Origin: Halichondria panicea
Taxonomy: Eukaryota > Porifera > Demospongiae > Suberitida > Halichondriidae
Assembly: GCF_963675165.1 (NCBI RefSeq)
Contig: NC_087392.1
Coordinates: 3,053,001-3,117,000, forward strand
Length of the DNA stretch: 64,000 nucleotides
Reading direction: 5' to 3'
Shown piece after piece: positions 11,506-59,184 of the stretch. Position 1 is the first letter of the stretch. The number at the start of each line of letters is the position of its first letter. A program made the position numbers and the translations under genes. The notes under the pieces are model-generated. The model was not told where the DNA came from. It worked only from the letters and a program-made list of their open reading frames with translations, and did no database searches.

Positions 11506-11580
11506 TAATTTTGCAGTATCGTGTTTAATTTTTATATATAATAACTGAGTGTCAATTACATAATTATATTAATGTGTAAA

Positions 11581-11610: not shown

Positions 11611-11730
11611 GTAATAGCCACAATACACGACACAAACAATAACTAATTAACCTATAAGTATTAAGTAACACAATCATGGTATATATAGTCATGTAAAATA
11701 ATTATTATGGGACAGAAGTACAATCGATCA

Positions 11731-12747: not shown

Positions 12748-12819
<72 letters not shown>

Positions 12820-21400: not shown

Positions 21401-24400
21401 ATACATTTCAATGTTTCTGACCTGTATAGCGTAACATAATTGTTATACCGTATAGCGGGACATTTTTGCTATTTTGGCTCTAGAGCCGCCAGCAGAAATG
21501 TTTGTGAGTTCTAATATTTCCGTTTCAATGCCATGCAGGAAACCACAACCCACCAATAGTTTTGTATGTGAAATACCAGTGCGTGGGAGTTTAAGTTTTA
21601 ATTTTCGCGTTATCTGTTTTGCCCTCGAAAAACGCAATTTTGCACCCCACGAAAATTTCTCGATATACGGTACTCCCACTTTTGAGGGTTTCCCACTGTC
21701 GTAATGCTCTTATTGTTGGCGCGTAGCTGGTCAATCTGTCTGTTTGTCATTCTACATGTATGTATTCTAAGTCTGCTCACCTGGATGCGATTAGCGCTGT
21801 GTTTGTGCAAGTGTTGTATGTATGTACACTGTATTTCTATCTCTAGCTTGCAGTAACGAATATTTGAAATGTTTTCTATGTAGGCAAGCTTCAGGAGCGC
21901 ATCTTGGACAAGGATGAAAAAGTGAGGATGGGAGTGGTGAAAGTAATCTTGGAGACTGCTCAAGAAAACATCAAGTTACTGCCTCAGGAGGTAATTGATG
22001 TGTCACTGAATTCAACATTGTCTCTCTTATACTATGGGAAAGTTGTTGTTTTTCACTTTCCATATTACTGCTGTGTTTCTTTCCTTTAGCTCATCGATGC
22101 ATTAATCAATCGCTTAAGAGACAAATCGGTAAGGAACCTTGCTGGCCTGTGCGAGTAGTTTTCTATTATCTACTCTCTTATTAGTGGAATGTTCGAAGAG
22201 AGGCCATGATTGGTCTGGCTAAACTCTATCGTAAACTGCTATCTGGCTCCTCATCATCTGAAGTTGAGCTCAAGCCCTCTTTAGTTAGGTGAGTCAAGTT
22301 AGGGTTTTGTTGGTGTTTTATGTGTACCTTAGCACACTTGCCCGTTATCTAACAAGCTTGGCCTATAAATTACACACAACGAGTAGAAAATGATTATATA
22401 ACATCGCTTCCTACTAGCTGAGATGAATAAATAAACTGCATGTTCTTCAAAGTCTATATAAGGTTCTACAGGGCTTGCTTCACCAGTCCCAATATGTGCC
22501 CTGACCTCTACTGCAGTTACAATCAATCATATACATGTACATATTTATAACAGTATAGCACTTGGACAATTGTAGCACGAGATGATCGATGATCTCCAGT
22601 CAATTATCCCTATTCTCTCCCATCCTACAGAATGTACTCATGGATCCCCACAAAGCTCCTCCATTGCTACTATATGGTGTCAGCAGAAGACAGACTGTGT
22701 GTGGAGAGATGTATGCTTGGTGCGCTGGTACCTGTCAGTTATCGTTCCCAAGATCGCATGCAACGACTCGTGCATGTCTACGCCCGGCTGGATGAGAATG
22801 CTACCAAGTGAGCATGAACCACTGGTCGTGTTACAAACGTGGATGTTGTTTCTTTTTAGGGCATTTGATCAGCTACTTGTCTCAAGGCATCAGTAAGTTT
22901 TGTTGATTTTTACTCGAAATAACTCCTTACATTAATAATTACTTGTACGCTTATAAGTGGATTTTTCCTCATCCAATATCAGACTGAGGAAGCACATGAT
23001 GTCCGTTGTTACTGCTATTCGGTCTGGACAGATTCCAGAAGATGAGACGAAGGATCACGTGCTTACTAGTCTTGTACTTCCAATTGCACGTGAGTCCTGG
23101 CTAAGCCAGTGTTATAATGATGTGTATGCCAGCTATTCTCAAACAGTACTGTACATTGTACATGCATTGTACCTACAAGTATGAACTCATACAGCAACAT
23201 CAACATAATTATGTTTGTCTGCTTCTTAGGAAAGCTTCCTGAGCCAGTGAAAGCACAAGCTGCACTCAAAGAATTCGTTAAGATGCTGCTTGAGGACGAA
23301 GAGATGGTTGATACTCTTGCAAAGGCAGTTGACTGTGTAATACCATGTGAACATGTTCAGAGTGCAAAGGTGGTTATTACATCATCATTGTGATTGTATT
23401 TATCCCCCTGGATCAGTCACTACATTGTTGGCACCATTATTGTACTGTATAAAAATTATACGTAAAACTTTTTAGGTGTCTTTAATCTACTCGCAGTTAG
23501 CCTCGATCCCAGGCCGCACTTCCCGCTAGGGAAGTGGCCGGTGAAGGAGGCTAACTCGCAGTATTACATTATAAAGTACATTTGTACATGTACATCTTGA
23601 TAATTCTTACGCGAAGTAATGGAAGTTGCTTGAGCATGTTACTTTTTCATAGGTGGAAATGCTGAATAGCGTGAAGTCCAACGATGTGGTCATGGAAGTT
23701 ATGAAGAACCTGTTGGATTTCTGTGGCAAAGTGATGGTTGATAATCTGTGTATTGGACACCTTGTCGAACAGGTACCGTTTTACTTGTCACTGTAATGTC
23801 TAGATTGTATTGCAGCTTGAGGTCCCAGTGTGTAGGTTATTTTCATTTGCATACTACATGTAGCTAGCGCAACTGTATTCTGTACATGTATGTATTTCAT
23901 TGTAGTATTAAGTAACGTATAATGTATGTAAGTGATGGTACATGTATGTATTCTTATGACTACAATGACTACATGTGTATTATTTCTATGATAGGTTTCA
24001 CGGGCTCTGTTTGACTGCCCATTGTCAGACAGCCAGGAACAGGAGGCAGAGACCTTCATGGTTGCTAAGAAGGCTGTCAGATTGTTGAGGGTTAGTCCAA
24101 GGTCTTAATATCCATCTTGTGATATGTTGAGCCACCATGTACCGTCTATATACTATACGATATAATATATGCTCTTTTGTCCTCTTCCCCACTGATTCCA
24201 AAACTTTCGCTTCCCCTCCCCCCCTGCTGCTCCTACATGTAGATTCTTCTGTGCATATAAATAATTTCTCTTTGTAGGTTCTGGCGCCCGTTATTCCTGA
24301 GTGTTTTACCTCTAATGAAGTGTTCACCGGTTTGGTTGACATTCTCAATCACAAGGATATTGAAATTAGTGAGTGTGTGAATTTTTTGTCATCAATTAAG

Positions 24401-27400
24401 TGACATATTGCACATGTTTATATCCTTCAAAGCTAAGCAGGCACTGCAAGTGTTCATATCTATTGGAAATCAGGTTGACGCCAAGCTCGCCAGGTATGCC
24501 GTCTGTCGCTCAATGTGAATACCTACTAAGTGGTTTTTATGTAGTTGTCTTCAACCCATCCTCACCAAACTTGCCTCAAGTGGTCATGTCCAATTGGCCA
24601 AACTCGCTGTCAAATGTATCCACTGTGTTTTCCAAGAACCTCGTCCAATCTTTGATAAACTGTGCACTGTGAGTTATCTGTCGAAGGCGATGTATACTTT
24701 AGTTTATAACCGGAAATGGATTTTAAAGATCCGCACAATGAAATGTATTTCACTTCCAGACTCTGGTGGGGCATGTAGACTACGAGGATCCCCATTTTCA
24801 CACTGTCCTTGTTAGCCTGAGTCAACTGGCAAAGCTGCAGCCAGAGGTGTTCTCTCCTTTTCACAAGACCATTGTCAGGGACAACCTCGTCAAAAATCTC
24901 TTCGTTGTTGATAGGGCAAGTCATTGTGTCAGCAACGAAACTTGCACATGCATGTATACAATGTACATGTATATTATACATGTACGCTTACTGTTTAGCT
25001 AACCCACGAAAACAGCGAAAATTACACGTTGTACGGTATTTAATTGGCATTCCAAAATGTCTGACAAGCATTGTTATGCTTTTAACATGTACTTTTGAAG
25101 TGCTGTGCATGTGCGTGCAATTCTTTATGTACACGCTGAGTGCTCCTGCTGATACTCCCATCGAAGTCACAATGGATGTGTGTCTCTTCGTCCTTGGTAG
25201 TTGTTTGAGGGCATCTATTCCCTTCCAGGATGATACTGTGTATGAGTTTGATGTGAACTGTGACTCTGAGTGGTGCGAGGATGACCATGTGTCGTATGAG
25301 GCAAAGGCCAAGGTCCGTTTCATCCACCCTTGATATCCGCACAGTACACATTATACACAGTGTACATGTACGTATATAATAATAAATACTTGCATGCTCT
25401 ATTAATAGTATAAATAGGGAAGGCCCAAAGTGTATTATTTTTGATCAGGGTCATAAACTTGTTTCTGGATGCAGGTGTTTGCTGCAAAGCTACTGGTGAA
25501 CTGGCTGGTGGGGGACAATACTCTAGGAGAAAAGGCTGCCCTTCCTGTCATCAGGATGTTCATTAGCATCATTTTGAACAATGGCGACTTGCTGGAGAAA
25601 GAGCATATCAGGTGCTTCCCAGTGAACTCTTGGTATATATATAGAACTTTGCAAATCATTTAAACCCGGAGTTCCTAGTTAAATATGTGTGCAGCTGGCG
25701 TTAAAATTGAGTTTCTGTGTTCACAGTCCCCCTGACATGTCTCGACTGAGACTGGCCGCTGGCTGTGGGCTGCTGAAGCTGGCCTGCTGCCCACGATACG
25801 CTGAGCTTATCACAGCCGAACATTTCCAGTCTCTTGCTTACCTAGTCCAGGTATTGGAGTTTATGTTGTCCTCAGCATTCATGATGTGTTTGATTTTGCT
25901 CAGCATCCATGAGATGTGATATAATTACTGTTTAGCTAGTGCTAGTAAAAGAGAGCCTGGTGTTCTCTTGGTACCAAAATTGTAAAATAGAGGTTCTTAC
26001 CCCACTGTGTGCTATTTCTACATGTGACCTCAAATTAAAACCATTGTCTTCTTTGTCATAAGGACTCATGTTTGGAAGTGAGGCATCTGTTTGCTGTCAA
26101 GCTCAGTAAAAAACTTTTGTCTATAAGACTACCTCCTAGCTATCTCTCCATCTTTGTGCTGGCTGGAAGTGAGCCTCAGAAAACTGAGAAAGCAACGGTA
26201 TACTTAAAATTTACTGTTCTTGTACATAACCTATATTTATTTCAGTTTCGAAAGATGGTTGTCTCCACTGTGGACAAACGAAGGAAAGCATTTAGTGAGC
26301 TCCTCAAGGCTCAAGGTACATACATATATATACACTCGTTTCAATATCAGTATGATGTGTGTGTGCTGTAATCTCTACAGAGAAACATCACGCATTTCTG
26401 CCAGAGTATGCCATCCCTCATGCCGTATACCTCATATCTCACCACAAAGATTTCCGTAGGACAAATATTGAAACGCTCGACAACTTTAAGGAGTGAGCCA
26501 CTTTTTGATTAGTTGATTAGTATGGCATGCTATGTACGTAAAGGCTTATACCATAGTGCTGGAAATAATTTATATCCGAGGATAAAATTATATGTTTTGG
26601 CCAATTTTAAGGCTCTGAAAATGCGATCAAACGCCGCAATTACAATGGGAAATTGTACAGGCCTCAAATTAATTGTGCGATACAAAAGATGACAATATGA
26701 TAGCCGCTCGCATAAATAGCATTAGTTAGTGTCATGCATTAATCTAGCACTACGGTACTACTGTGCATTACAAGTATCAAGTACAGACTGAAATTAAGCC
26801 ATTATAATTATGAATCGTTACCCTGTACCATGGTTCTTGCACTCTGCACATGACAATGTCCGTCCATATTGATGAATGTGTTGTCTTCCGTTCACTGTCC
26901 TATTCCAGCTGTCTCTGGTTCTTTCTGGAGCCAATTGTGGTGAAAGGAGACAACTACAGCTTTGTGTGGAAATTATTGGAAACGATGAAGTCCACAGTGG
27001 ATGCTCACAATCCTGATGACCCTGAAATCAACAAGAACATTTACTGCACTTGTGACCTGGCAATGGGAGTCCTCTCAAAGAGAGTAAGTTTAGTTCAACA
27101 TTGACTAAAAGACTACTGCTTAATTTGTGCAGATGATGCACATAAAGCTTGGTGACTTTTCTGGGGAAGTTCTCCTGCCAGCCAAATTGTACTCTTTAAA
27201 GAAGGGGAAGGTACATGTACTAGTCCAATGGTACGTGTTGTCACAGCAACCTTCTTCTGCTATAGATTGCCAAGTCATCAGTGAAGTACCTGCCTCCTGA
27301 CTACGACTGCACTCCCTCCAAGCTTCCAGGCATCAAGACTGAGACTGATGGCTCCACTCCTAAAAAGATCACTCCTCGGAAAAGGTTTGTTCCGTAAACA

Positions 27401-29165
27401 ATTCAGTCATATCGGTTACATCATAGATAGAGTAGAAGAGGGATTGGAAACGGAAGTGATTCACGTGATGTTTTACAATGAAGTCTACGTAGTGGCTCTG
27501 GGACCATCCGTGTATCTCCTCATAACTCCCGCAAAATCCCGGGAAACTTATTGTGTCCAAAGCATACATCTCAGAGCTACCCCCATTACTGAATCACATG
27601 CCCCCTGATAGTAGGTATCAATTGGAAACAAAGAAAATATAATCTCGATTGTCGTGAAGTAGCTAGAGGTACACAGAGCGCTTTTTCATGCTTGTGTTCC
27701 TATAGTACCTTTGATATAGCTAAGGCTTTGTAACTAAATAGTGTCCTGTGTCCCAAATGGCCTCAAGTATTAGAGAAAGTTGATGTTTAGCAGCAGAACT
27801 GCTCGTGGACTTCTTACAGAGAGCAAAACAATTCTCATGAATTATTCATGTTTAGCCCTCGTGTTAAAAAGTAAGCCTCGATTAAAACCACCGCGGAGAT
27901 ACACGGATGGTACTTCGAGGTACTTCCGTTTCCAATCCCTCTTCTACTCTATCTATGGTTACATGTACTTCATTCTTGCTTTCTAGTATGTGCATACAGT
28001 TTGTTCAATAGTGAACTAGTAATGGGTTTAAATTTCATGTTTTCTGATTCTTGCCTCTGGTCCAATTTTTACACCCTGTTATGCAGTATTGCACTACCAT
28101 AAGTCTTCTTATTTGTACATACCCAACCCCCCCTCCCATTCATTATAATGTTACACACACGCTTCCCTGAGCAGAGCCGGTCGATCCAAGTCTCCAGTAC
28201 TACCTGTTAGACGAGCTAGGAAATTGCGAGGGTTTGCCACAAGCACTCCTGCAGTGAAGCCAATCAAGCCTTTTGGTGCTAGGTTAGGCAAGAAGGCCAC
28301 ACCCGAAAAAAAGACACAGACATACTCCAACAGTGATGAGAATGGACTATCTGATGTTGAGGTGTGTTGGCCACGTATATACACCCCAATAATAGGACTG
28401 GTTCATTTAAATGTATACCCCAAATGACAATATTCATTCCTATTTTAGGAAGCTGGTGTTGAGGCAAGTTCACTATATGTCAGTCCGGTGAGGAGTAGCC
28501 CAAGGAAAGGCACTGTGCCAAGGTACACTTGTTATAATTATATCACTGCATGGGCACCTACACCATTCATGCAAGTTTTTGTGTATGAATTACTCATAAT
28601 TATTTTATGCAGAAAACAAGGTGTCATTCGAAAAGTTCTTCAACACAAAGATAAAAAGGTTGCTAATGTTGCTAATGCCCTGCAGCTTTTAAACCATGTG
28701 CATATCCAGGAAGATGATGAGATAGACCCAGTCTGTGTTGGGGAGAGTGGAGCATCCCCTCCAGCAGAGCGAAAGGCAACGCGGAGGAGTCACAGGAAAA
28801 AGACCGCACAAGAGGCGGTGGTGAGCTACGTGGAGCCTTCATCCCCAGATGAAGATGATGCAGATGTGAGTTGATTTTTATCCAGCTATGTAAACTTTTA
28901 GCAAATCTGTTTGCAGTCTGAGGTCGAAGTAAATCCATCACCTAAACGAAGAAAGGTAAACGTAATCTCATTAGATTTCATTTTGTATCAACTGGGTGTC
29001 AATGCAGACGAAAGACGTGGCTGCTAAAGAAAAGAAGGTGTGTGCTGATGAACCCAAGAATGCAGCCACGGGTGTAAGTACTTGACATGAGATGTGTATG
29101 TTTAGGGGCTTATGAACCTTTTTAATTGTGCTTAGATTAAACGCAAGACAAGACACAGAAGATGA
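15441..29165 (+). CDS. PDS5: Sister chromatid cohesion protein PDS5
   Basis: HEAT-repeat regulator that binds cohesin with WAPL or sororin and controls its chromatin residence. The 37 exons give 1,355 aa (human PDS5A 1,337). Exons: 15441-15527, 16000-16200, 16294-16380, 16500-16594, 16942-17068, 17198-17278, 18390-18530, 19426-19541, 19600-19694, 21884-21990, 22090-22128, 22185-22288, 22631-22807, 22860-22892, 22983-23089, 23230-23369, 23653-23772, 23995-24090, 24278-24368, 24433-24493, 24545-24668, 24760-24915, 25229-25312, 25475-25611, 25727-25850, 26063-26197, 26246-26315, 26381-26492, 26909-27083, 27133-27210, 27266-27384, 28175-28361, 28449-28522, 28613-28865, 28917-28955, 29008-29073, 29136-29165. 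Every junction is in phase. Family landmarks: TDELVKRLK near the N-terminus, [38 protein letters not shown] and [10 protein letters not shown]. The basic, charged tail is diverged. Exon 22 appears to use a GC donor. Intron 9 holds a nested receptor gene. AATAAA overlaps the stop codon. Confidence 0.96.
16664..16902. mobile_element. TA-flanked MITE, CCATATAGCG...CGCTATACGG
   Basis: Ends read TACCATATAGCGCGAAA and ATGTCGCGCTATACGGTA, inverted, with TA at both outer borders. The interior repeats a CACGAAAATT-like motif. It lies in PDS5 intron 4 and closely resembles 43961-44170 (shared GTGCAAAGATTAAAGGC and TTAGAGGCCATTCCACG). Confidence 0.8.
18736..19005. repeat. Two-copy tandem duplication in PDS5 intron 7
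   Basis: Two roughly 130-bp units share blocks such as GTTTACAGCATGG, CACACAACAAGTTA and GAGCAAAAGCT. A partial third relative (GCTCACCTGGATGCGATTAG) occurs near 21775 in intron 9. No coding function is evident. Confidence 0.65.
20215..21360 (+). CDS. Seven-helix (GPCR-like) receptor nested in PDS5 intron 9
   Basis: Intronless frame of 381 aa starting at ATG 20215 ([12 protein letters not shown]). It has a short N-terminus, seven hydrophobic segments (about residues 22-44, 56-78, 92-120, 133-155, 190-218, 234-258, 264-290) and an intracellular tail of about 85 residues rich in Ser and Tyr. A Cys at the start of helix 3 (TQVCAMIGF) and a Cys-Trp pair in the second extracellular loop (MTFCWIV) fit the conserved GPCR disulfide. 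The Cys-Trp context and short N-terminus suggest a relative of the class B/cAMP-receptor-like group, but there is no class A DRY or NPxxY, and I cannot assign a ligand. It lies on the same strand as PDS5, inside the intron between 19694 and 21884, so it needs its own promoter. Likely a G-protein-coupled receptor; family is uncertain. Confidence 0.8.
   Translation: MESSQYLLECTNLSVPMLQTLNLIRGTSGLLCMLTAILVFAILLRLYCITPKLQRSVMKRMVLVLTAFTIPLQVLFVLQFEHYFQYTGQTQVCAMIGFLSQWLSSIEYNYALGITIYLMYVVCRVLSKQVVMVSSYLKNISEALFYVVVLFFPLLYMWVPFANSGYGLDMTFCWIVSSNKNCSDLGELNRNMFFGISVTEGVISIGCIFIVSLMYCMVCGYKKLANKKILSLLRRTLFLMCLLITRLAIAVLGTLIKTPLQTQMFIRWMYFAAFIPIAYMIVPLGFLVYACAIGKSKKNNMCSNFCKKQDQFIMPVEQLSAVTNNQSKKEYVRSYTYWSVPYTNGFNSISEHEELERLAELQPFRSSSDTGYSSQQCSNQS
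21446..21672. mobile_element. TA-flanked MITE, CCGTATAGCGGG...CGATATACGG
   Basis: Inverted ends TACCGTATAGCGGGACA and TTTCTCGATATACGGTA lie in PDS5 intron 9, just after the nested receptor. The interior (AATGCCATGCAGGAAACC, GTGAAATACCAGTG) matches 59029-59184, so both belong to one subfamily. Confidence 0.8.
23489..23561. mobile_element. 57-bp palindromic mini-element with 8-bp target duplication
   Basis: The palindrome 23497-23553 (TTAGCCTCGATCC...GGAGGCTA, inner arms CACTTCCC/GGGAAGTG) is flanked on both sides by ACTCGCAG (23489-23496 and 23554-23561). It lies in PDS5 intron 16. Its TAGCCTCG terminus is shared with 29798-29830 and 42491-42536. Confidence 0.8.
27415..27964. mobile_element. 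MITE with perfect 36-bp arms and GTTACAT duplication
   Basis: Arms 27422-27457 and 27922-27957 are perfect reverse complements, beginning CATAGATAGAGTAGAAGAGG. Each is directly bordered by GTTACAT (27415-27421 and 27958-27964). The 536-bp element has no transposase frame. It inserted in PDS5 intron 31, 30 bp after the donor. Sequence next to the left arm (GTAGTGGCTCTGGGACCAT) recurs in diverged form at 3592-3665. Confidence 0.9.
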
Positions 29166-29877
29166 ATAAACAAATTATTACTATACCCTATCCACTTCTT
29201 CATGATATTTAGTTATAGCAGTCACTCCAATATTATAATTATTATTAGTCCTCTATGATGCCTTTTTAAGATCAACGTGTACAGAACTCATCACCCTCAC
29301 TTCCTCCTCAAGAGCCTGCATAGATCTATGTGGCAGGTTCTAAACTTTCCTTAACTCAGACTACATATCACCAGTATTCACACGTCACCCTTTGACATTC
29401 TCATGTTAAACGATTTTACTGTCATTGATATATTTTATACTGCTGCTGTTAATTAAGTATGTGTAGGCCAAGAGTAATACCTTAAGGTGACATATTTTCG
29501 TGTGTATTGATTTCTGCTATTTCTGCAAATGAGAGTAAAATCGCAAAAATTAATACTCGCAAATAATTGACCGCCCTCTTGTTTACAGATTGACATTTCG
29601 CAAAAAAATTACACCAGCAAAATGTAAAAATGCAAACAAATCTACCTGTGAAAATAATATTATGTCACATACAAAATATGTAGTAAGTAAAGTCAAGAGT
29701 TCCTAATGAACTCTTGGTAAAGTAGATAAGGGAGTATCATACACAGAATGGGGTCAACATGCAGAATGTCGGCCACACCCATAATTATGGCACGGTCTAG
29801 CCTCGAATCATCGGCCTGGTCTCGAGGCTAAACCTTACCAAGATAGTTGTGTCTCTAGCTAGTGACAGTGAGTGGAC
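29166..29877. other. PDS5-DHDH intergenic region
   Basis: 712 bp between tandem genes with no coding sequence seen. It includes an element-like stretch at about 29486-29670 with inverted ends of the GTGACATATTTTC type, and the short palindrome at 29798-29830. It should contain the DHDH promoter. Confidence 0.6.
29798..29830. repeat. 33-bp TAGCCTCG palindrome
   Basis: TAGCCTCGAATCATCGGCC is followed by TGGTCTCGAGGCTA. The ends and the GGCCTGGTCTCGAGGCTA half match 42491-42536. No flanking direct repeat is visible, so it may be a decayed member of that mini-element group. Confidence 0.65.
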
Positions 29878-40156: not shown

Positions 40157-40370
40157 CTTAAAAAGAATAGCAGAACAGAGTGCTAGTGCCAGAACTATAT
40201 TTTAATTAACAAAGTCTCCATATCAGGACCACGCCCACTATTTCATTAATGCTGACTTAGCTGTTTTTACAACCACGTGTGCTAGTTAGTTCGCTTGGTT
40301 TCTAAATAGCGCTACCATCATCCAAACACTTTTATAATAAAAATATAGATCAAATTGTGTACCAAGAGGA
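40157..40370. promoter_or_regulatory. Short divergent promoter, AP5B1/RBM26
   Basis: Only 214 bp separate the two start codons (40156 on minus, 40371 on plus), so both 5' UTRs and core promoters must fit or overlap. A palindromic CACGTG E-box lies at 40274-40279, near the midpoint. CACGTG is bound by Myc/Max-, USF- and MiT/TFE-type bHLH factors. Whether it works here is inference. Confidence 0.6.
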
Positions 40371-43300
40371 ATGCAAATAAAAGACACAGACAAACTGAAA
40401 GAATGGCTGCTGAAGAAGTTGGAGCCACTGTAATCACTATTACTTTCTCTATGTAGATTCCATTGGCTAGAGATGAATATAGCTTAGTGTTTTTCGAGCT
40501 TGGTGTGTGTTTATTTTGTATGATGGGATCCTTGTATGATTATATGTGGGTGCTTGTGTGCAGGTGTGATGCAGACCCTGCTGCCTTGGCCAAGTACGTT
40601 GTAGCGTTGCTACGAAAAGAGAAACCAAAAGCAGCTTTGAAAGAACTCTGTATTGACCAGCTAGAAGTTTTTCTAGCCAAAGGTGTGTCCACCATAAATA
40701 TAATTATTTCTACCCCTGTGCCCTCACAATTGCATACTAGAATGGCTATGCAGCTAGTTCATATAATGCCAACATTACCACTATATAACTTCACGTGTCA
40801 AGGGTGGAGTATTGTAATTGCAGGTCATGACTGATAGATGTAACCACCAGACATAATTAATTCTAAAGTGTGTCACTTCATTATGCAGAGACAGCAGGAT
40901 TTGTGGAGCAGCTTTTTGCTGGCCTGGACAACGAGTTGTACCTCAAGGGGACAGACTCTGTTCCACCCACCAACACCGGCAGCAAGACCCCACCTCCACC
41001 ACCGGCACCAGACACTGTTAGTGTGGAGAGGATGCAGTCAGAAGACCATAGCAGGAGGAATGAGGTACATATACATGTAACTACACTGTACAAGCTGAGT
41101 GTTCCATAGGTGTGGTACACTGTATATTAACATGATTTATACTAACTTGCATTCCTTGCCAAAAACTTTTCAGTTTAAAAACCTTCAGGTGTAAGTGCCA
41201 TGCTGTATCATAATCTGTAGGTGGATGATGAGGACAGGGATTTTCGTCGGTCAAAGCGATTGGGTGATGGTGGAGCTCCAAAGAGAGTGGTTTCCACTGT
41301 AACAAGTAGCACTGGACTTGGAAGAAAAAGGAGAATAGATGCTCCTCAGGAGATCAGTCAAAGTTCTGTGAGGTATGTTACAAGAAAAATTAATGTCCCA
41401 ATAGACTGTGTGTTTTTGTACCCTCTAGAAAATAATTGCTGTTGTTGTTTTTTAGGCGCCGTATTGAGCACAGTGGTGGCTCTGCTGTCAGTTCTTCCTC
41501 AGGTACTGCAAAAAGGCCAGTCAGAGAAAGGCTGGGAGTGAGGCAGGACGATCTGAGGAGGTAACAGAATACAGGGTTTTGTAGAATCTTTGCAACAGTA
41601 CTGTGTAAAGCTTAAGCGCCTATGTACACTGGTTTACAGATGAGTAACCTCAATACTTATTACCATTAACGACCACCTCCAAAGAGCAACCACACGCTTA
41701 TAACGGCCAAAAGCTCAGGTCCAGATTGAAACTACAATGACTTCAATGTAAAGCAACCTCTCAGGAGCGACCACCTCTCTACTCCGTATAACAAGCAGCT
41801 TTCTAGTCCCCAACAGCTTTAGCAATGGAAAATAACCTCCCAGAACGGACAGCCGCACCCAGAATTAGCAGGAAATTATTGCTGAGATAGCATTATTTTG
41901 CACAATCGTGAAAACTTAGCTGTAGCTTGTCCCTGCAGCCTTTTCAAAGCTTGTATGAGCTAAATAAGCAGTTAGCAAAACTCCAAGATTCATTTGCAGC
42001 AAGAAATGACTCATAAAGCGTACATAGCTGGCAATCGAAACCTCCCAAGGAAGACCACCACTCTATAACGGCCAAAAGGCTGTTCCCCAATGGTGTCCGT
42101 TTTATGGAGGTTCCACTTTATAACTACATCTGCAACATTTGCAGTACTAGAATATTTTTGGAGTGTTGATCAATTTGCAATATATAATCATAAAAACCTG
42201 TACTGGTACTGTTATGATACTGGTACTGTTATGACACAAGATCCTTCGTGACGCACTAGTTACACTGTATGTACTGTATTCTACAAGAAAAAAGTGAGGA
42301 AATTGTCTTGGGAGCCAAAGCCAAAGCAAACTAAGGTATACTCAGCAAGATGGCAGATTATAGGAAGGTTTGAGTAAGTCATGTGAGAATAGAAGTAGCA
42401 CACAATCTCTGTGTTGACCCATTACAGTAAGTATACGATATGTATGTAGAACACAGTCAACTAGCAATAATTACACAGCATGGTACAATGTAGCCTCGAG
42501 ACCAGGCCGATTAAAATCGGCCTGGTCTCAAGGCTAGGTACAATGATGTTTATAGCCTCTCATCTACAATAATAAAAGTGTCTATTACATAATAGTATTG
42601 AGTTTACTCATCTGTAAACCACAGTGTACAATAGGCTGCTTTACACAGCACTGTTGCAAAGATTCTGCAAAACCCTGTTATACCATAATTTTAATTTTGT
42701 TATACCATAATTTTGATGTTATACATGTAAATATGTATTACGTACAGGTAATGCATTGCGGTTGTTGCTCTGATGTGTACTACATGTGCATTCATATGTG
42801 TATAATTAAAGCGTGTATAGCAACATCTCTAGTTTGTCTGCTATGGTATATATATATATATATACCAAAATCTTAAATCTTACAAATGTATATGTACAGT
42901 GGTGACAGGCGAGGGAATAGGTACCAGCATCGTGGCCGCAGCAGCTCTTCTTCAAACTCTGACAGTCAGTCGAGCTCGGACAGTGACCGGAGGAGCAGGG
43001 GGAGGAAGAGAGTACATTACTCTAAGAACCGCTCCTCCTCCACTGAAGACATGAGGAAGCAGCGTTGCAAGGACTATGATGGTGAGATGTGACCACCTTT
43101 AATTCAACATGATAGTCCAGTGTGTATGACAACCTTTAATTCACCATGACATGTAGTCTAGTGTGTATGTCGACAGTGTCTGACTGCATAAACTTTACAC
43201 ACTCCACAGAAAAGGGAGTGTGTATCCTTGGTGAAAGCTGTCCCTATGATCATGGTGTTGACCATCTCGTTATTGGAGGGAATGAAATGCCCCAGTTTCC

Positions 43301-46300
43301 TGGTCCACCTGGGATACTACCCCCCCACGGCATGCCCCTACCTCCCAATGCTACAAAATCAGGTGAGCCTTCTGTACCATGGAAGCTATACAGTAGCTAT
43401 AAACGATACGTTGTGCAACCAGAGTTTCACATTGCTGTACATGTACTTACACCTTTGTAGACATGATAATTTCTCCTCTGCTGTCTGGACGACCACGTAA
43501 GCACTACGTTAATCAGCATCCATCATTAATAAATATACAATTAGATAGGATCAGGAGTAGAGGAATTCATCTGCTCCTGATAGGATATTTTTGGAAATTA
43601 TGGTTAACAAGTATCATCTGAGTCACATTTGCATGTACATGTATGTATGATCGCAGATGGATCAGTGCCGGTGACTGATGGGTACAACCCTGAAGATCCA
43701 GCTCTCAGTAGTGCCTCAAAGTCTGACTTCCTTCCTGTTCCGCTGATGTTGCCTATGGGTCCTCGGTTTGGCACATTACCCCCTCCAATTCATGGTATGA
43801 TAATGTCTAGAAAACAAATAATTATACAAATGTACTGTGTAGCATGTAGTTTCGTAAGTGTCAATTTTGACAGCATTAAAGAATGGATCGTACTTGCAAC
43901 CTGATTGGTTAGAGGTAGTGTTCTATCTAAGTGTGTTAGAACATTGCGTATAATATTATATACCATATAGCGCGAAATTTTTTCACTGTTTTCGTGGGTA
44001 CTTAAAATACTATACAAAAATTATTCCCACGAAAATTATTAGAATTATCTGCTGTAACGTGCAAAGATTAAAGGCATGGCTTCTGGTAAGCAGTTAACCC
44101 ACGAAATTTATTCAACGAAATGGTTTTAGAGGCCATTCCACGTGCCTTGAAAATTTCGCACTATACGGTATGTATATAAAAAAAATCATGTTAGCTAGAG
44201 TAGATAAGAACAAGCAAACATTACAGTGATGACCATTGTTGATACGTACTGTACATGTACAGTGTATGAACTATTACGTAGATACTGCCAGAAAGGCATT
44301 GCGTACAATGTACATGTATTTTGTACTGAGCCACTACAATCAATCATGCATGCCACTGTTAATTCAGGTGTGACAATTCCTCCACTGTCTCTGTCATCTG
44401 TACATCCTCGAGTGATGCGCTTTGACCACTCAAATAGTGCCCCACCCACTTTTACCCACCCTCGTCCATTCATGGGCCGACATAAACCATCTGATACTCT
44501 CATTGTAAAGAAGGTTCCTCGAGATCTGAACACCATCACTAAGATCAGTGGTCACTTTGAAAAGTTTGGATCTATAGTCAATATCAAGGTATGTATATGC
44601 ACAATGTAGTACATGTATAGTGGAACCTCCATTAACGACCACCTCCAAAGAGCAACCACACGCTATATAATGGCCAAGAGCTCAGGTCCGAATTGAAACT
44701 ACAATGACTTCAATGTAAAGCAACCTCTCAGGAGCGACCACCTCTCTACTCCGTATAACGAGCAGCTTTCTAGTCCCCAACTAGCTTTAGCAATGGAAAA
44801 TAACCTCCCAGAACGGACAACCACATCCAGAATTAGCAGAAAATTATTGCTGAGATAGCATTATTTTGCACAATCGTGAAAACCTGGCTGTATAGCTTGT
44901 CTCTACAGCCTTTTCAAAGCTTGTATGAGCTAAAGAAGCAGTTAGCAGGGCCCCAAGATTCATTTGCAGCAAGAAATAACTCATAGAAAATACATAGCTG
45001 GCAATCGAAACCTCCCAAGGAAGACCACCTCTCTATAACGGCCAAAAGGCTGTTCCCCAATGGTGTCCGTTTTATGGAGGTTCCACTGTAGTTATAATAC
45101 AGTGCAGGGTTTCATCTAGGATTAAAATTTTGAGGGGGAATGTTGGCAAAATGTTTGGCCACTCCCACATTTGTTGACCACACCCTCATTACATGCTCGT
45201 AGATCTAGTTACATATTGCACATACTACAGTAATGATGTCATTATTCTACAACATTTTGGGGGGAAGGTTCATCCCTGCCCTCCCACTAGATGAAACCCT
45301 GACAGTGGTATATTTACTGCACTGTACAAGTAATTGTGCGCACTACAGCTGCGATAATTATGAGTTTTCCCCCTTCATCAAACAACCCGCCATCTGTGGC
45401 ATGAATTTTTATTCACCCTCCCAGGTTCGTCATGAAGGTGACCCTGAAGCTGCACTAGTGCAATTCTCCTCACCAGGCGAGGCAACTAAAGCTCACAATA
45501 GTGCTGAAGCTGTGCTCAGCAATCGATTTATCAAGGTCTTCTATCTGAAGCAGAATGATCTGCCCAGACAAGAAGTCTTCTTGGAAGTATGTGTTTTCGT
45601 AATTCTCTTGAATAATTATAATTATTTGTCCACCAGACCCCAGTATCGTTGGCCGTATCTGTATGTGGCCCCCCTACCAGTGTGTCTTCCACTGTGGTCT
45701 CATCTAGTGATCAGAGTACCAAGGTTACAGCAGAACCCACACCTGATAGCAGTAGTGTGGCCATCAAACGGAGACAAGGAAGTGATAACCAGCCTGCAAA
45801 AATGGTGAAAAAAACGTTATGTGCACAATTGTATCTAGCATGACACATGTACAGAGGCTGCGATTTTCGCTCTCTCTCCTGCTATATTCTGTAAATGCAG
45901 TTGGTACATGATTATATCCACCCGCTCTCAGATCTTGCCCCAAACTGCTATCCTCCCGTCAGCTCTTCCTCAGGTTAGCAGAAAGCAACAAAAGAAAAAC
46001 ACTGAGGCAGTCAAGAAGAGCCTTGAACTGCAGAAAAAAACTCATGAACTTCTTCAAAAACAGATTGAGCAACAAAAGGTGCTACTGTACTTAGTTGACG
46101 ATCTCTCACATTGTAGTGTACATTTTTCATGATATATAATTATACAGTTGCTGATCTCTAAACTTGAAAAGAGTGGCAAGCTGCTGCCTCCTGAAGAAAA
46201 AACCAAAATACAATTGGTAATGACGTTAGTACATTACAAATAGTTATTGTTCCTGTAAATGTTGTGTACATTGTGTTGTACCATTGTGTTGTACCATGGA

Positions 46301-49300
46301 CCAAGTTTACATGACTTTCTAAAGGATATTGTTTGTTACGTGCAGACACTGAAGTCTCTGTCTACTAACATCACTAAGCTGAAAGAAGCGGCTACTACCA
46401 TCAAGAAGAGAGCTGATACAGCCAAGGAAGACCAGACAAAAAAACAACCTTCGATTGACGCAGCTGACCTGAGAAAGAAAGCTGATGCTCTCAGAAAAGA
46501 GGTACAGTAAAACAATGTATTGTGTAAGGTTGTGTAAGGTTGTGCAAGTTTGTAGCAAGGTTAAGAGTGAAATATGGGATCAACAAGTAACTTGCAAGTA
46601 AATGGTAATAATATAGGTAAGGCACTCGGCTTCGCCTCACGCCGCCTTAAGGTTACGGTAAACCTAAATTTTCTTGTAATGATTTTTGTTTTTGTGAAAC
46701 TATAAATGCCACGATAGAAAGTTACACTTACATCTTACATATAAATATATAGGTGTATCATTTTGTATGACAAGTATCAATCATTAAAACATTCCAGTGC
46801 AAGCTCTGAGCAATTATTAATGTTACTAGAAACAACACAAACTAGTAGTCAAATTGAACTTCTTCTAGCTCTGCGTTCTTGCTCTTTTACTGACCAGGCT
46901 ACACAAAGCGTTTTTTCGTTCCTGGCCAAGAAACTCTCACAACACAAGAATATGCACGTAAAATGGTTAACAGAGCCAAGGAAAGCAGCCTCTTGTGAGC
47001 TTTCAGTAGTGCATGAGGCGTGCAGTGAAAATTAATCTGGCAGCAAAAGGGTTAAACAGCTTAATACGCATAATTATGCCTCGAGGCGTATATAGCCGCA
47101 CGAGGGATGCGGTAAAGCTGACTGTGTGTGTCTGTGTGTCTGTTCCAGCTGTAACTGCTCAACGGTTGCAATGCGACGAAAACTAACAGCTTTTTAATAT
47201 AGGCTTCTAGCCACGTTCTCTTGGATTTTTATTCGTGGATTAACAAACTAAAGCTTCTTTCTCGAGTTATGGCTAGTTTGACTCACATTGAAGGCTGTTG
47301 TAGTCTCTTCAGAATCTTTCGTAGCATATCTGTTCGCACAAAGTTTCTATAAGTTAGCCTTGCACTAAAGCGCTAGCTTTTTTGGGCTACAAGAGTCAAA
47401 AAAGAGCTGTAAAGCTAGTTGCTATACCGTAGTAGCCATTAATTTTGTAAACGTGCAGACACACCCCTTATAATAAGGCGCATGCGCATTACATACACAG
47501 GAATAAGGCTTAAATTATTCTTGTGTATGTAATGCGCATGCGTGCTCATCCCCACGTGTGAGAGAATAATATCCAGATCCTGGCAGAATCATCTTTTTAT
47601 TGAGGGCCTGGTAAGCCACAAAACACTACCATATGCACAATAATTATAGATACATAAGTATTTTCTTCTTAGATATTATCAAGAGTAGATTATCTACTCT
47701 TGATATTATATAGACACTGAACTCCAGATCCTAGAAAGATCAATTTTCTTCTTTCTTGAGGTCCTGGTAAGCCACATAATACAATAGATAACAACAATAT
47801 AGATGCATGTAAATAAGTCTTTTCTTCTCAGTGAGTTTATATAGATAGGCTAACTTTAATATTATAGAAAGCATAACATGGCGAGAGGCATTAGCACAGC
47901 GCAGCTTGCAATACTCGTTATCATAAGTATTCAACCTTCTTATAGAAAATAGGCATAAGGCCAATCATTTTTATGTAATCAAGTGAAGCTTCTGTTCCCA
48001 ATCTCTAGCTCTCTTTCCTTTATAATTATGGTCTGAGTAAGTAAATAGTATGTTTCTCATGGAGCAGTTTTTCAAAGTACAACTAAAGGGCGTATAAAAA
48101 GAGAGAGGACATGCAACTGACTATCAAGCGATCGCTTTCACTAAGCAGATGACTGACCTCTTGTGTTTTACTTCTCCAGTCCAAAAGTAATACCCACAAA
48201 ACAAGCTGTAGCAGTGGTGGAAACTCTACTGCAATCTCCATTACTGCCCATTCTACTGATTATATAATACTACTGTCAAAATGTGTGTTATTTGTGACAA
48301 AAATTTTACACAATCTAAGTATAGCAGCTGTGTTGTCTGTTGTGCAGCTAGTGCATGCAACAATAATTATATTCTCCCCATGCTCTTTCAGCTAAGGGGG
48401 CCACTTAGCCTTATTTTCCCCATTCTTGAACTGTTAGCTAGTGCATGCAACAATAATTATATTCTCCCCCATGCTCTTTCAGCTAAGGGGGCCACTTAGC
48501 CTTATTTTCCCCATTCTTGAACTGTTAGCTAGTGCATGCAACAATAATTATATTCTCCCCCATGCTCTTTCAGCTAAGGGGGCCACTTAGCCTTATTTTC
48601 CCCATTCTTGAACTGTTAGCTAGTGCATGCAACAATAATTATATTCTCCCCATGCCCTTTCAGCTAAGGGGGCCACTTAGCCTTATTTTCCCCATTCTTG
48701 AACTGTTAGCTAGTGCATGCAACAATAATTATATTCTCCCCATGCCCTTTCAGCTAAGGGGGCCACTTAGCCTTATTTTCTCCATTCTTGAACTGTTAGC
48801 TAGTGCATGCAACAATAATTATGTTCTCCCCGTGCCCTTTCAGCTACAATGTAAGGGGGCCACTTAGCCTTATTTTCCCCCATTCTTGAACTGTTAGGTG
48901 CACTAGCTAACAATAATTTTAATGAACGAAATTCATAGTTTTCTAGGGAAAACACTGTAAATTAGAGTCAGCTGTTGGAGATATGAAAAGAAATTTGCTA
49001 CTGTATGTGCTAATTGGTTACATAAAAGTTTATGTACACCGCAACTACCAAATTTTCTCTGGATATCTGTATTAATTTTATGAATGCTTTATCGGCAGAT
49101 ATTGTCTACTCTGCTTGACTATATTTCTTTTGTCAGGCTCATGAACTTGGATTGTTGAAGAACTTTTCGCAACCCCTGACTGACAGTAGGAAGGGACCTC
49201 TAAGACCAAAGCAAGCAGCAAAACCCCGAAAGCTTCTAGTGATTGGTACACAAGAAAGAGACAAACTTACAGTCTATTTTGAAGTAAGCAAGAGAGAATA

Positions 49301-51196: not shown

Positions 51197-54100
51197 ATGT
51201 CTGCGGCATCCAGTAATCAGCAGTTGCCTCCAAAGGAGGCAGGCATTTTCAAGAAGATTGTGGTACGCATGGGTTTTGTGTTCATTGTGTGTACCGTAAT
51301 TGAATGTATTTAATTACAGGCCACTAAAAGTGCTGTTAATTGCTTGAATGCGGAGAAATTATTATTAAGTGCCATCTCAAACTGAACGCAATTTTTGAGG
51401 TCCTAGAAGAAGTACCCACTGTCGCCACTATTTGATTTTTTACTCGGCTTAATATAAAAAGGTGGCAGGGATGTTTTCTATACATTTTGGCGTATAACAC
51501 TTCTATATGCGTGCATTTGATGCATAGCTGTGCTGTATTACTGTCCAGATACAGCTGTAAAATGTGGAGACCAAAAATCGAACCATAAATTGTCCTGCAT
51601 ACCTAAGCGCTAGCTCAGCTGAACGCAGTTCGAGGGTTCTATAATGTGCACCACTCCGAATTGTAATTTTTATGGCATTGTAAATTACATCAACAACGGT
51701 GACCTTGAATGTTGTCCATTTACAGCGTTGCTATGAATCTAAGCAGTACAAGAACGGACTCAAATTCTCTCGGCAGATCCTCTCCAATCCAAAATACAGT
51801 GATCATGGAGGTACATCTTTTATGGTGTTAGTGATTTCTTGGTGTTAAGTTTGATGATTGGATTTTTTCTGGATTTCTAGTATGTTACATGTATTCTGTA
51901 CATGCAGAGACACTGGCCATGAAGGGTTTGTTGCTAAGCTACATGGGAAGAAAGGAGGAAGCATTCGAGTATGTGCGTAGAGGGCTGAAGAACGACTTGA
52001 GGAGTCACGTCTGTTGGCATGTGTATGGACTACTTCAGCGAATGGAGAAGAAATATGATGAGGCAATAAAGTGTTATAGAAATGCTTTGAAGTGGGACAA
52101 GGAAAATGTTCAGATTCTGAGAGATCTCTCCTTGTTGCAGATACAAATGAGGGATGTCGAGGGATTCAGGGTAAGTAGAATATCTAAGTTGTATCAACTC
52201 TGCAAGAGTTTGAAGAGTCTGCAACAGCCTTAAAAGTAAGCAAAACTAGCCATAACTCGAGAAAGAAACATAATTGCAATCCAAAAAAAACGTGACTAGA
52301 AGCCTATAGAAACTTTTACTTGCACTTCAGTATCATTGAGCAGCTGTAACACTCCACACACACACACAAACATGCTACCATACACCTCGCTTGCGCATGC
52401 GCACCCGGGGCATAATAATTGTCTCAATGTTATTAATATGCATATTTCATGTATGTGTAGGACACTCGCTACCAGCTGCTTAAAGTGAGACCTGCCCAAC
52501 GGACCTCTTGGGTTGGTTATGCCCTTGCCTACCACCTGCTTAAAGACTACCCAATGGCTCTCAAGGTGGTAGCGGAGTACAGGAAGACAATGGTTGCCAA
52601 GGTAAGTCGGTACAGTAAATGCTTGGAAGTACATCTATCTATATCCATTGAGTCATGTTCATTCGTTACAATGTTAGTCAGTACACTAATAATTGACCAG
52701 CATCATTGGTAACTTTCATGCCTTTGTGTGTCCACTCAGGCCAAGCCCCCAGACTATGAGTACAGTGAGATGATACTGTATGAGGTGCAGTTGATGCTGG
52801 AGGCAGGACTGAAGGATGAAGCTCTCAAGCACATGAAGACATTTGAGAGCAACATCTGTGACCCTCTCTCAGTTATGGAGACTCGAGGTAAGCATTGCGC
52901 TCACCGTTTGAACTAACTAAGAGATTGCTAAGTCTCTATTCCCTATTCCCTATTATTTTATTCAATATGTAGAAGCAAGTGCATTTTAGATTTCAGTCTC
53001 GTTTTGATCTTGTATCCAGCTTCTGTTTTCATGGAGTATGGTCAGATGAATGATGCTGAGGTGATTTACAAAGATCTTGTTCACCGGAATCCCTCCAACT
53101 GCTTCTACCTTGAGCAACTAGAGAAATGCTTAGGATTGGATGATCCTGACTCAAGACTGAAACTCAACACCCAACTGCAGGAGGAGTACCCTCGATCACA
53201 TGTCATCAGGAGGATGCCACTTACATTCACAACAGGTAATAACATACCGTATTTACTTGATTAAACGCCCTCCTTGAATAAACGCCCATCTCGTTTAAAC
53301 GCCCAGGGTAAAGCTCTGTCTTTGTCAATAAACGCCCATCTTAAATAATCGCCCATATATGGGGCATGGCACTGTGGGTGGAGCTGAAATAGCACATGGA
53401 ACCCGTTGCAAGCATGGCAGCATATACTTTTTATGATGCATCGATGGCAGAGAGAGAGATACCGACACAGAGGGCACTCCTATGACTTAAATTTAAGCTG
53501 AGACAGCAGCCCAAGAAGAGCACAATAACTGCTGCTGTGCAAGAGTTTTGGAGTAGACATAACAATAAACGCCCCCTCTAAAGACTTCGATCTGAAATAA
53601 ACGCCCGGGCGTTTAATCAAGTAAATACGGTACCTGTTTTGTAGTTTATTTAATTACTATCGTTGATGACATATTAACCACCTCTGGGTGTTGACTTACT
53701 GCCGCGGAGGCTGCAAAAAGTCAACCTGTTGTGTTAAGGCTACCTGTATCCATACTGTAATCGCCGCTGTTTGGCAGCCTCAGAATACTTATGTAAGCAC
53801 AACGTTTTTTCTTTGTTAGGTGGCACATTTCATACCTTGATAGACGCTTTCCTCCGCCGGTCTCTGAGCAAAGGTGTTCCCTCTCTGTTTGTCAATGTGC
53901 GACCTTTCTATAATAACCCAGATAAAGTGAGTATGTTCAGTCCATCAATTTTTTTTATGTCTGGTGCTGTTTAACGGTAGGTGAAGACTGTTGAGGAGCT
54001 AGCATTGTCTTACTTGAAATCACTAGAATCTTGTGGAAGATTTAGTGATAATGGTGCGTTAATCATTCTAACCCCAGTTGGCTTTTCATATCTAACCACC

Positions 54101-55623
54101 CCCTAATACACTCATAAAGGTCCGGAGGAGTCTCCTTGCACTGTTCTATGGACAAAGGTGTTCTTAGCCCAACATTTTGACATAATTGGTAACTTCGGCC
54201 AGGCAATACAACTTGTTGACCAAGCAATTGACCACACCCCCACTGAAGTGCAGCTGTACATGACAAAAGCCCGTATTCTCAAAGTAAGTACTTCCATGCG
54301 GGAAAGTATTATACACATTGTGTTGCAATGCACAAAATAACAATTTGTGTAAATGTTCAGCCGTAATGTCCAAGCAAATAACACTTTGGTTGGCCATTAG
54401 CTAAGATTGGTAGGACATAATTATTTTGTTCTCACATCAATCAACAAGAACAAGAACAAGTACGTGTGATAGTAAAAGTTGTACATGCAAAAGATGATTA
54501 TTATTATTATGCATTAAAAAAAATGTCCCAATCAGCTAGCTAAGTCATTTTCACCATGAGTTAATATCAAAGGAGAAGAGGGCATGCAACTGGCTATCAA
54601 CCCTACGTGCTGAACAAAAACTAAAGCCACAGACCGGATAACTATGTACTGTAGTACACAAACTTTATATTACTGTACTTTTCCACTGCCCACTTTAGTT
54701 TTTGCTCGCAAGCTGTTGCATACCCCCTTCTCCTTTATACGCCATTGTTAATGTTACTTTATTGACATAGAATTTAAATGAAAGACTGGCTATGCCATAA
54801 ATAGATACAGACTTTTCCCCAATTTACGGAGTTAATAGTAGCTAGCGGTTCTTTTAGTTCTAGTGAGTGTATGTCTCTAGCAGAGCTAGCTAAAGAGCTC
54901 CAGGCGCATGTGTAGAGTCAAAGTGCATTTCGCTAACTACTAAGTAGAATACCGGGTTTACTCGCATTGCAACCATGGAGCATTTGTCGCTATACTTACT
55001 GTATTCTCGCAATATATATATATATATACATGCACCCACCCAGAACGAACAGTTTGAGAATACTGTATAATTATAGCTAACATATCACAATTCTACAGTG
55101 GGTTAATTTAGTGTAGTTTCTAAGATACCAGGCTGTATTTTTTTCTTCAGAAAAATTGGTCTGAACGAAGCTATTGTAGACGACCGTACTTACGACATTG
55201 TTTATGGCTTCTGTACTGCAACACCCTTTTAATAGCATGCTGGAGATCTGGCTGAGGCTGCTCGCTTTATGGAAGAGGCAAGGACCCTGGACACAGCTGA
55301 CCGTTTTGTCAACTGCAAATGTGTCAAATACCTATTCAGAATCAATCAAATAGACCAGGCAGTGGAGACAGCTGGACTCTTCACTAGGGTATGTGCTATT
55401 TAGTGCCAAGGTACTCCCTTGTGTTAGTATATTATTGATACGGTTAATTGTGTAAAACTTCTCGTTGCACGTACAGTAGTGTTGTGTTTTTTATGGCGTC
55501 AGAAAAAGGCGAACTAAACTGTAGCAAATTATTCACCCTAATTTCGTAAATATTTTCCAGAAAGAAAAAAGTAAAAATAAGGATTCCTCGGTGTGCACAT
55601 CCATGCGCAAGCGAGGTATACGG

Positions 55624-55667
<44 letters not shown>

Positions 55668-58600
55668 CTACGGCTGCTCAGGGATTAATTGTAGTGCAAA
55701 GTAAGAGCCTTCTAGTCATGTTTTCGATTTCAATATGTGGATTTGCAAAATAATGCTTTGTTCTCGTGCATTAGAACACTAGCTTTTGGTAGCTGCAAGG
55801 GTGAGAAAAAAACCTGCACTGCATGGTCTTAGTCTATCTGTGCTTGGACTTGGGCATTGTTTTTAGCAACAATCATAGTCGATCATTTCCCACTATTTTG
55901 AGCATTCCTGCAATGGCCTGCATGCAAAATTAATATTATGTGTGTATTTAATAGCTAGTAGCCTCCACCTAGTCTCGTGGGCCATACTTTGAAGAGGGAT
56001 ACTTGTAGTGTCCCCCTTGACTATAGTAGTATCCCCCTTTAAAGTATGGCATGCGAGACTAGCCTCCACCGAGGCATCAGCACTTGCGGTACTTTCATTA
56101 TTACATGTGTGCTGCTAACTAAAGTACAGTGCAATCCAGTGGCGTTTGAAAAGCTGCTATGGGGAAATTGCAGAATTTAATATATGGAAGAGGATGAGCA
56201 AGCTGGCATTACCTATTATTATTATTACATGTTCATGTCAGTAACTACATGCAGCTTGCTTGAATCACTTCTTACGGCTTTGTAATAATGGGATGCCGGT
56301 TTGTGTCAAAATTATTCTTTCACGATATTTACACACAGTCTTCTACACTTCGACCTTTAATTTAATGTTAAACTGGAGAGTGGAGGGAGAGGTGGAGCTG
56401 CACATAGCAGGCTGGAGAGAAACCTGATGAGTGATTAACTAATTCCAGCCTCTGCCCAATCTACATTCTCTAGTTTACCATTAAATTGAAATTAAATCGT
56501 ATTAATTAAAGGCCGACATCCTACAAAACACAGAAGACTAACGATTGGTAAACATCAACTGATTGTTAGAACTCCATGAAATAATAATTTGGACACAAAC
56601 AGCACCCCATAGTGAAAGATGAGGATTCTTTGTTTGGTATAATGGCTGACCAGCTTGATTTCTTGAACTCTGTAGCCATCATGCAGCAAGGCTGGAATGA
56701 AACGGCTAGTTTCCTTACTTTTTATGAACTATACCCCGTTAAACGGAAACTTTTATTTGAAGGCTGCCTCACTGTATTTTATTCCCGATAGTACAAGGAA
56801 GCTAGTTACAGTAATCTAAGTCTAAAGGTGAAACTTCTTCATTGAACCTATAGTCATTCGGCTTTCCAGTTTTTTTAACAACCTGTCCCTTCTCGTTTGT
56901 CATTGCTTTTCATAGGAGGGGCTCCCCACCCTTCAAACCATGGACGAGATGCAGTGTATGTGGTTTCAGAAGGAGATGGCAATGTCTTATTGGAGGACTG
57001 GTCAGCTTGGAGAGGCACTGCAGAAACTCCATGAGATGGACAAGGTGTGAGGTTATAATACTGTAATTCAGTTAAAAGATTTATTGGTATCGTTTCACCT
57101 TATCCAGCATTTTAGTGACATGATTGACGATCAGTTTGATTTTCACACCTACTGTATGAGGAGGATCACACTAAGATCATACATCAGGTTAGTCATTGTG
57201 TGCTTTGCTAATTTTAGCTATGGAACATGCAACATGAATTGTTGTAGCGTTCTGAGGCTAGAAGATACCATCAGGAAGCACCCATCGTATTTTGAGGCAG
57301 CTAAACTGGCTATTAAGGTATAAAAGTATAAGCACTCGGCTACTTTTAACCATTTCTTTTATAGATATATATCTTCATCCACGACAATCCAGATGCCAAA
57401 AATGCTAAAATGAATGGAGATTCTAACAATATCAGTTAATTGCACTTTATTGTGTTTGTTTTATTAATGTTAGTTGATTCATTGTGTAGGTGACTTGACA
57501 CCCTCTGAGCTTAAAAAGCTGCAAAGAAAGCAGAAGAAAGCTCAGCTCAAAGCTCAAGAAGAGAAAAAAGGTGCTTGCATATAACATACTTGTTACAGGA
57601 CTAACCAATGTTGATTTTCCATAGAGAACAAACCACAAAAGCAACACGAGGAGGAGAAGAAAGGGGAACAGAAGTATCCATTCTTTGATCCAAAAGAGTT
57701 ACTTGAGACCAAGACGCCTCTTGAACAGGCCCTGAAATTCCTGTCGCCGTTACGGCTGTTCTCCAGTGGGAGAATAGAGCCCCACTTACTGGGCTACGCT
57801 ATCCATTCGAGAAGACGTGAGTGGTCATGGTCATTGATCGATCACCTTTACTAATATGCAACATAATGCACATTGCTTTAGGAAAGTTTTTGCTGATGTT
57901 ACAGTCAATAAAGAGAGCACAATGCATAGATGCTGAAAATGGAGAACTACACTTGAACATCGTAAACTTTGTCGCAGAAGGTGTGTAGATTTTTGTATTT
58001 GTATTACATTCTCAAAGTTTCACCAAAACAGTTGAAAAAAGTCGTGACCGGCTACCTGACCCAATCCGCACTGTGATTGATGAGAGTCTCAGCTTGCTTA
58101 CACACGGCAACAGTCTCACAGAGCTCAACAGAGATTTTGTACAAAAACACAAAGAGTCACATGAGCACTTGATATATGGTAGGTGCAGCATGTTTATTTT
58201 TTATAAAACACTGTGTAAATACTACTGAGGTAGGTGCAACACTGTTCAAAACATGGTGTAAATACTACTGAGGTAGGGTGTAATACTACAATCATTGCTT
58301 TTTCTTGGAACAGGAGCACAGGCTATGTTTGCCATTGATCCAGCCAACAAAGATAAGGCGCTAGCGTATATTACTGAGCTCTCTGATAATATCCATGGAA
58401 GAAGCCTCAAGGTTTGAAATCTCCCCAGCTGTGTGTGTGTGATAATCCATGCGTTAACTTCTAGTCATGCAGCCAAGTGTTGGACTTGCTTAAGCAAGGA
58501 GTGTTAGGAAAGTGTTCAAATGAAGTAATTATGTTATACACCCAACAATGCTCAAAGCTATTCCCTATGGCAACTGTGTTCAGACCAGACCCATCTCCTT

Positions 58601-59028: not shown

Positions 59029-59184
59029 TACCGTATAGCGGGAAATTTTCATGTTTCAATGCCATGAAACCAAACCCACTAATATTTTGCATGTGAAAAT
59101 ACCAATGTGTGGGAGTTTATCTCAGTTTTAATTTTCGCATTACGCGAAATTTTGCATCCCACAAAAATTTCCCGCTATACGGTA
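59029..59184. mobile_element. TA-flanked MITE, CCGTATAGCGGGAAATTT
   Basis: 156 bp with exact inverted ends TACCGTATAGCGGGAAATTT and AAATTTCCCGCTATACGGTA. The interior matches 21446-21672. Confidence 0.88.

Follow-up and report, generated by a model that had tools for sequence, protein, structure and literature searches.

Short palindromic elements with common ends and 9 bp target duplications in sponge DNA: probable ends-only derivatives of Mutator-like transposons

A stretch of 64,000 nucleotides from the sponge Halichondria panicea (contig NC_087392.1, positions 3,053,001 to 3,117,000; hereafter the window, numbered from its first letter) contains three short palindromic inserts, termed elements 1 to 3. 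These raise the question of whether they were inserted as units, what kind of transposase would have moved them and how they came to be so small. On the evidence below, they are probably non-autonomous DNA transposons cut down to their ends, that is, terminal inverted repeat (TIR)-only or ‘foldback’ miniatures, with a Mutator-like element (MULE) the most likely source of the transposase. Elements of this kind are already known; the small size is unusual.

Element 1 (56 bp, 23498-23553) reads TAGCCTC...GAGGCTA at its ends, contains an inner hairpin, ACTTCCC/GGGAAGT, and is flanked by a 9 bp target duplication, ACTCGCAGT, at 23489-23497 and 23554-23562. Element 2 (46 bp, 42491-42536) comprises two 22 bp arms with 2 bp between them, and its 9 bp duplication, GGTACAATG, is found at 42482-42490 and 42537-42545. 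Element 3 (92 bp, 55970-56061), which reads TAGTCTCG...CGAGACTA, lies between copies of the 9 bp duplication GCCTCCACC at 55961-55969 and 56062-56070. The duplications are given on the plus strand and the elements without strand. When repeat lengths of 1-12 bp were compared, the exact direct repeat was 9 bp at all three elements and abutted the common end each time; a further exact match at the flanks of element 2, at 1 bp, was trivial. Five of the six ends of elements 1 to 3 matched TAGYCTC and the sixth, the right end of element 2, differed by one change (TAGCCTT), the first five bases being TAGCC or TAGTC. The element boundaries were set by this common motif. The original prediction had the inserts in the right places, with lengths of 57, 46 and 93 bp and repeats of 8, 9 and 8 bp; the 8 bp values arose because two elements had been started one base too early. 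The common ends, which it had limited to the first two inserts, are present in all three. Its proposal that the inserts arrived as units is well supported by the three perfect 9 bp duplications, and the recurrence of this length at three sites unrelated to one another suggests that a transposase or similar enzyme made a staggered cut.

The internal structure of the elements was variable. In element 2, the 22 bp arms are 95 percent complementary and separated by 2 bp, in keeping with the near-perfect palindrome that had been described for all three inserts. That description did not extend to element 1, with 28-nt arms that are 75 percent complementary when counted with the target repeat included, or to element 3, with 44-nt arms that are 80 percent complementary. 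In both, the outer 7-8 bp are followed inwards by mismatches between the arms, and pairing resumes further in; in element 1, the outer 7 bp and the inner stem pair, with a mismatched patch between them. Folded as single-stranded DNA, elements 1, 2 and 3 gave energies of -18.0, -21.8 and -26.3 kcal/mol, corresponding to z values of -4.5, -9.5 and -10.1, respectively, and none of 200 shuffles of each element folded equally well. Element 3 shares the outer 8 bases with one change and has its own sequence further in. By eye, the cores of elements 1 to 3 were unrelated to one another while the ends were common, so the end is the constant part and the hairpin core the variable part.

Several controls were made against chance. 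The extended end motif TAGYCTCG was present at eight sites on the two strands of the window, against 1.37 expected, and eight were reached in none of 100 shuffles. A control set of 756 inverted pairs with perfect 7 bp ends and spans of 30-120 was drawn from the window. All nine flanking bases were repeated only at the pairs starting at 23498 and 55970, which are elements 1 and 3; element 2 falls outside this filter, with one mismatch in its outer 7 bp. Eight of the nine flanking bases were repeated at two other pairs, one at 12703, nested in a perfect hairpin at 12.7 kb, and one at 23883, mostly unpaired inside. A stricter scan required a 9 bp repeat and complementarity at 9 or more of 10 end bases, over distances of 30-600 bp. 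Its sole match in the window was element 2, and none of 20 first-order random resamplings gave a match. When the repeat was set to 7 or 8 bp, the same scan yielded two matches each in the window, and a single match in 3 and 2 of the 20 resamplings, respectively. A looser scan, for a 9 bp repeat with pairing of 7 of 8 end bases over distances of up to 6 kb, produced seven rows: elements 1 to 3 and four pairs with unrelated ends. Since four of the seven had unrelated ends, the looser repeat-plus-end filter alone is not specific and the common end motif matters to the case. Outside the window, 107 look-alike pairs (TAGCCTCG/CGAGGCTA, 31-61 bp) in 108 loci had between zero and seven of the nine flanking bases repeated; these are not independent trials, several of the loci being near-copies of each other. 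As none of the 107 reached eight or more, a chance origin of elements 1 to 3 is very unlikely.

According to the favoured explanation, the ends would be recognised in trans by a transposase, most likely a MULE enzyme, whose gene lies elsewhere in the genome. The recognised end would cover about 18 bp, made up of TAGCCTCG, about five variable bases and, in its commonest form, AGGCC. The enzyme would excise the unit and insert it at a target site cut with a stagger of 9 bases, and repair of the staggered target would then give the 9 bp duplication. Template switching or internal deletion, either preceding or following the last move, would account for the palindromic cores. A published model of core change in such elements invokes template switching at stalled forks or gap filling (PMC8277862; here and below, statements on published work refer to the available parts of each source) and may, by analogy, apply here. 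Among the traits of MULEs, a duplication of 8-10 bp, mostly 9 bp, was matched by the 9 bp found at all three elements that have one; as to another trait, inverted repeats that are long or modular and enclose variable cores, the cores did vary but the arms measured only about 20-44 bp. MULE-derived FHY3 genes are described from the sponge Amphimedon in the literature. As the original prediction had stated, no transposase was detected in the window by Pfam (E 0.01) in 10 open reading frames and 20 of 24 translated pieces, the latter covering 18052-63035 in all six frames and 3058-18052 in two of six. Nor was there any larger pair with these ends and a 9 bp repeat, up to 6 kb, in the window. Hence the enzyme either acts in trans or has been lost.

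Two further candidates were considered in the window. Element 4 (33 bp, 29798-29830, no strand), proposed earlier as a probable fourth copy, has the expected ends and one arm identical over 21 bp to an arm of element 2, the other arm being only about 9 bp; the direct repeat was absent. A dihydrodiol dehydrogenase-like gene, whose apparent start codon is at 29878, follows after a gap of 47 bases. Candidate element 5 (69 bp, 59829-59897, no strand) is degenerate and also without a target duplication, and its arms matched a consensus drawn up by hand at 20 of 24 and 18 of 24 positions. Most arms of elements 1, 2, 4 and 5 start with TAGCCTCG or a sequence one base off, the left arm of candidate 5 being three off, and in most of them GGCC lies about six bases beyond this start. 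Candidates 4 and 5 folded less clearly than elements 1 to 3 (z -2.8 and -2.1), with equally good folds in 3 and 6 of 200 shuffles, respectively. A weight matrix was built from five arms and compared with five random resamplings; the five arms themselves scored 23.7-31.8 and the best resampled score was 14.3. The right arm of candidate 5 (59897, minus strand), which was outside the matrix set, scored 19.6. Inverted terminal repeats with an abutting duplication of fixed length, 9 bp each, were thus found at three of the five candidates, and 4 and 5 may be old, recombined or deleted copies; copies without a duplication are also reported for the nematode family Tm1 (PMC3169594).

A lone TAGCCTCG at 60169 was left out, as 1.37 sites are expected by chance. 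The hairpin at 12689-12749 has 29 bp perfectly complementary arms and a 3 bp loop and is immediately followed by an (AC)n run. Its end, AGCCTTGA, is reminiscent of the present family; it was left out because no flanking repeat was seen.

A number of observations weigh against the MULE foldback explanation or against parts of it. With the weight matrix, the left arm of candidate 5 scored 13.4, less than the best resampling, and 15.1 was reached at 57714, within NAA15-coding sequence, so the membership of candidate 5 in the family is uncertain. The target duplication was not found at two of the five window candidates, 4 and 5. The searches made here revealed no second copy of any single core, no longer relative and no transposase. 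In the available parts of the literature compared, the TAGYCTCG end matches no MULE end, and MULE foldbacks are far longer, MuTAnT starting at about 200 bp and Tm1-ML averaging 431 bp. The assignment to MULEs rests on duplication length and architecture and is accordingly likely, well short of certain.

The alternative that survives best shares the mobile origin. The elements would have landed as longer miniature inverted-repeat transposable elements (MITEs) and shrunk in place by replication slippage in the hairpin interior. This is a serious possibility, falling somewhat short of an even chance, and is a sub-question of the foldback explanation, with which it is compatible. It would suit cores that all differ while ends and duplications are intact, and also element 4, which resembles element 2 with one arm cut back. 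It sits less easily with element 2, whose arms are almost perfect complements only 2 bp apart, and element 4 must also have lost its duplication. For element 2, then, there are two possibilities: units of this size move, or they are what is left of longer foldbacks that shrank once inserted. As no core recurs in the window, both are compatible with it.

That the 46 bp unit, with two predicted transposase-binding ends and 2 bp between, is itself mobile is rather doubtful. Its movement would be mechanically awkward because a duplex of this length is scarcely able to bring its two ends together by bending, and would thus need pairing of the ends of two copies, end recognition on an extruded cruciform or movement as a hairpin. 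If mobile, it would be among the smallest eukaryotic transposons. Units of 33-60 bp are shorter than, or close to, the minimum length accepted by common MITE-finding programs. If they do move, some of the hairpins in animal introns may be transposon debris that has gone unrecognised, and the smallest substrate of a transposase with a 9 bp stagger becomes testable. If the elements merely became shorter once inserted, they are ordinary remains.

An origin from Merlin, P or another superfamily with 7-9 bp duplications is improbable. P elements make duplications of 7-8 bp, shorter than those observed here. Merlin elements have 8 or 9 bp duplications and three Merlin sequences are reported from the sponge Amphimedon (PMC8101967); however, the new and all earlier Merlin families in that source start with GG, whereas the elements here start with TA.

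Weaker still is the case for miniature elements of the hAT type, as the original prediction had suggested. Duplications of about the right size and short inverted repeats would agree with it. However, hAT transposons make 8 bp duplications and follow the terminal rule YARNG; the duplication here was exactly 9 bp in three of three elements and the fifth base of the TAGYC end is C, where the rule wants G. Palindromes that arose by chance, or insertions of other than transposon origin such as patches from templated repair, could draw on other short window hairpins without a convincing flanking repeat (12689-12749 and 47479-47542) and on the four unrelated pairs of the looser scan, but are hardly credible given that three exact 9 bp repeats abut one end motif and that neither the resamplings nor the look-alike pairs produced any such case.

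Relatives were also sought outside the window. Viral-contig DNA scans with the TAGYCTCGAGACCAGGCC arm, TAGCCTCGTTCCCAGNCC, TAGCCTCGANNCCAGGCCG and the element 3 arm returned no stretch in each case, as did a scan with the end of another window repeat; a scan with the gapped end pair returned 106 stretches, of which 80 were retrieved. Arm matches in genome contigs (two stretches, in bacterial records) had no palindromic partner and were taken as chance. Of eight arm strings searched as literature text, one matched, in three unrelated papers. Literature searches on sponge MITEs, Mutator and hAT elements in Porifera, the shortest MITEs and short palindromic elements, with Repbase and subscription literature outside their reach, gave no title or abstract describing such elements among the matches listed, which in one search were 20 of 97 papers, and the available part of PMC3899998 contained nothing on sponge MITEs.

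Genes recognised in the window by Pfam and PDB matches were PDS5, the NatA subunit NAA15, phosphoglycerate kinase, a dihydrodiol dehydrogenase-like gene and genes with SRCR and tyrosine-kinase domains. The coding stretches are interrupted, and the window has the appearance of animal DNA. Element 1 is flanked by PDS5 matches, at about 22632-23396 and 26033-26200, and sits within an apparent intron with splice borders, read by eye, at 23372/23652. Element 3 lies between NAA15 matches at 55236-55388 and about 56895-57320. Element 2 is between apparent exons of a gene without a Pfam match, which by eye we take to resemble RBM26/27. PDB phmmer searches matched NAA15 and dihydrodiol dehydrogenase and gave no match for 23241-23372 or 44208-44603. 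On the plus strand at about 4270-11500, Pfam matches to SRCR, Fz and tyrosine-kinase domains are clustered, possibly in one receptor kinase gene.

Other repeats were seen in the same DNA. At 27422-27957, 3' of the last PDS5 match, is a separate DNA transposon of 536 bp with 36 bp perfect inverted ends (CATAGATAGAGTAGAAGAGG...) and a 7 bp flanking repeat, GTTACAT; matching pieces occur near 3.6-3.9 kb. Four inverted-repeat units with similar, TACCRTATAGCGNGAAATTTT-like ends are located at 16662-16904, 21446-21672, 43957-44174 and 59029-59184, likeness beyond the ends being seen only for 59029 versus 21446. A 388 bp unit at 53245-53632 has 26 bp perfect inverted ends, TACCGTATTTACTTGATTAAACGCCC, and at 48346-48897 a 90 bp unit is repeated six times in tandem with 96 percent matches.

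Typical eukaryotic MITEs have no coding capacity, carry inverted repeats and target duplications, are usually 100-600 bp long and share a common core, in contrast to the 33-92 bp and absence of a common core in the elements described here. Bacterial RUP and Correia elements are likewise very short and non-coding, with target duplications and many TA termini; they differ in being about 105-168 bp, bacterial and driven by bacterial transposases (PMC2229807). Merlin, as set out above, is alike in duplication length and differs at its ends. The Muta1 MULE of Aedes aegypti likewise has duplications of 8-9 bp, genic insertion and numerous non-autonomous derivatives whose cores vary, but its inverted repeats are 145 bp with tandem repeats and its autonomous element is 3198 bp (PMC5225508). 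The MuTAnT foldback MULEs of Medicago share the modular foldback form, 9-nt duplications and gene-near sites, and differ in their greater length, GGGG ends and TA microsatellite targets (PMC4486113). The Tm1 Mutator/Foldback family (Phantom subclass) of root-knot nematodes differs in the length of Tm1-ML, in arms with tandem repeats of about 14 bp, in asymmetric 7 bp end motifs of other sequence and in having a known transposase-encoding copy. It is alike in that 9 bp duplications are the commonest, 45 of 53 complete elements having one of 8-10 bp, and in its short conserved outer motifs and copies without a duplication, with MITE-like forms as its largest class (PMC3169594).

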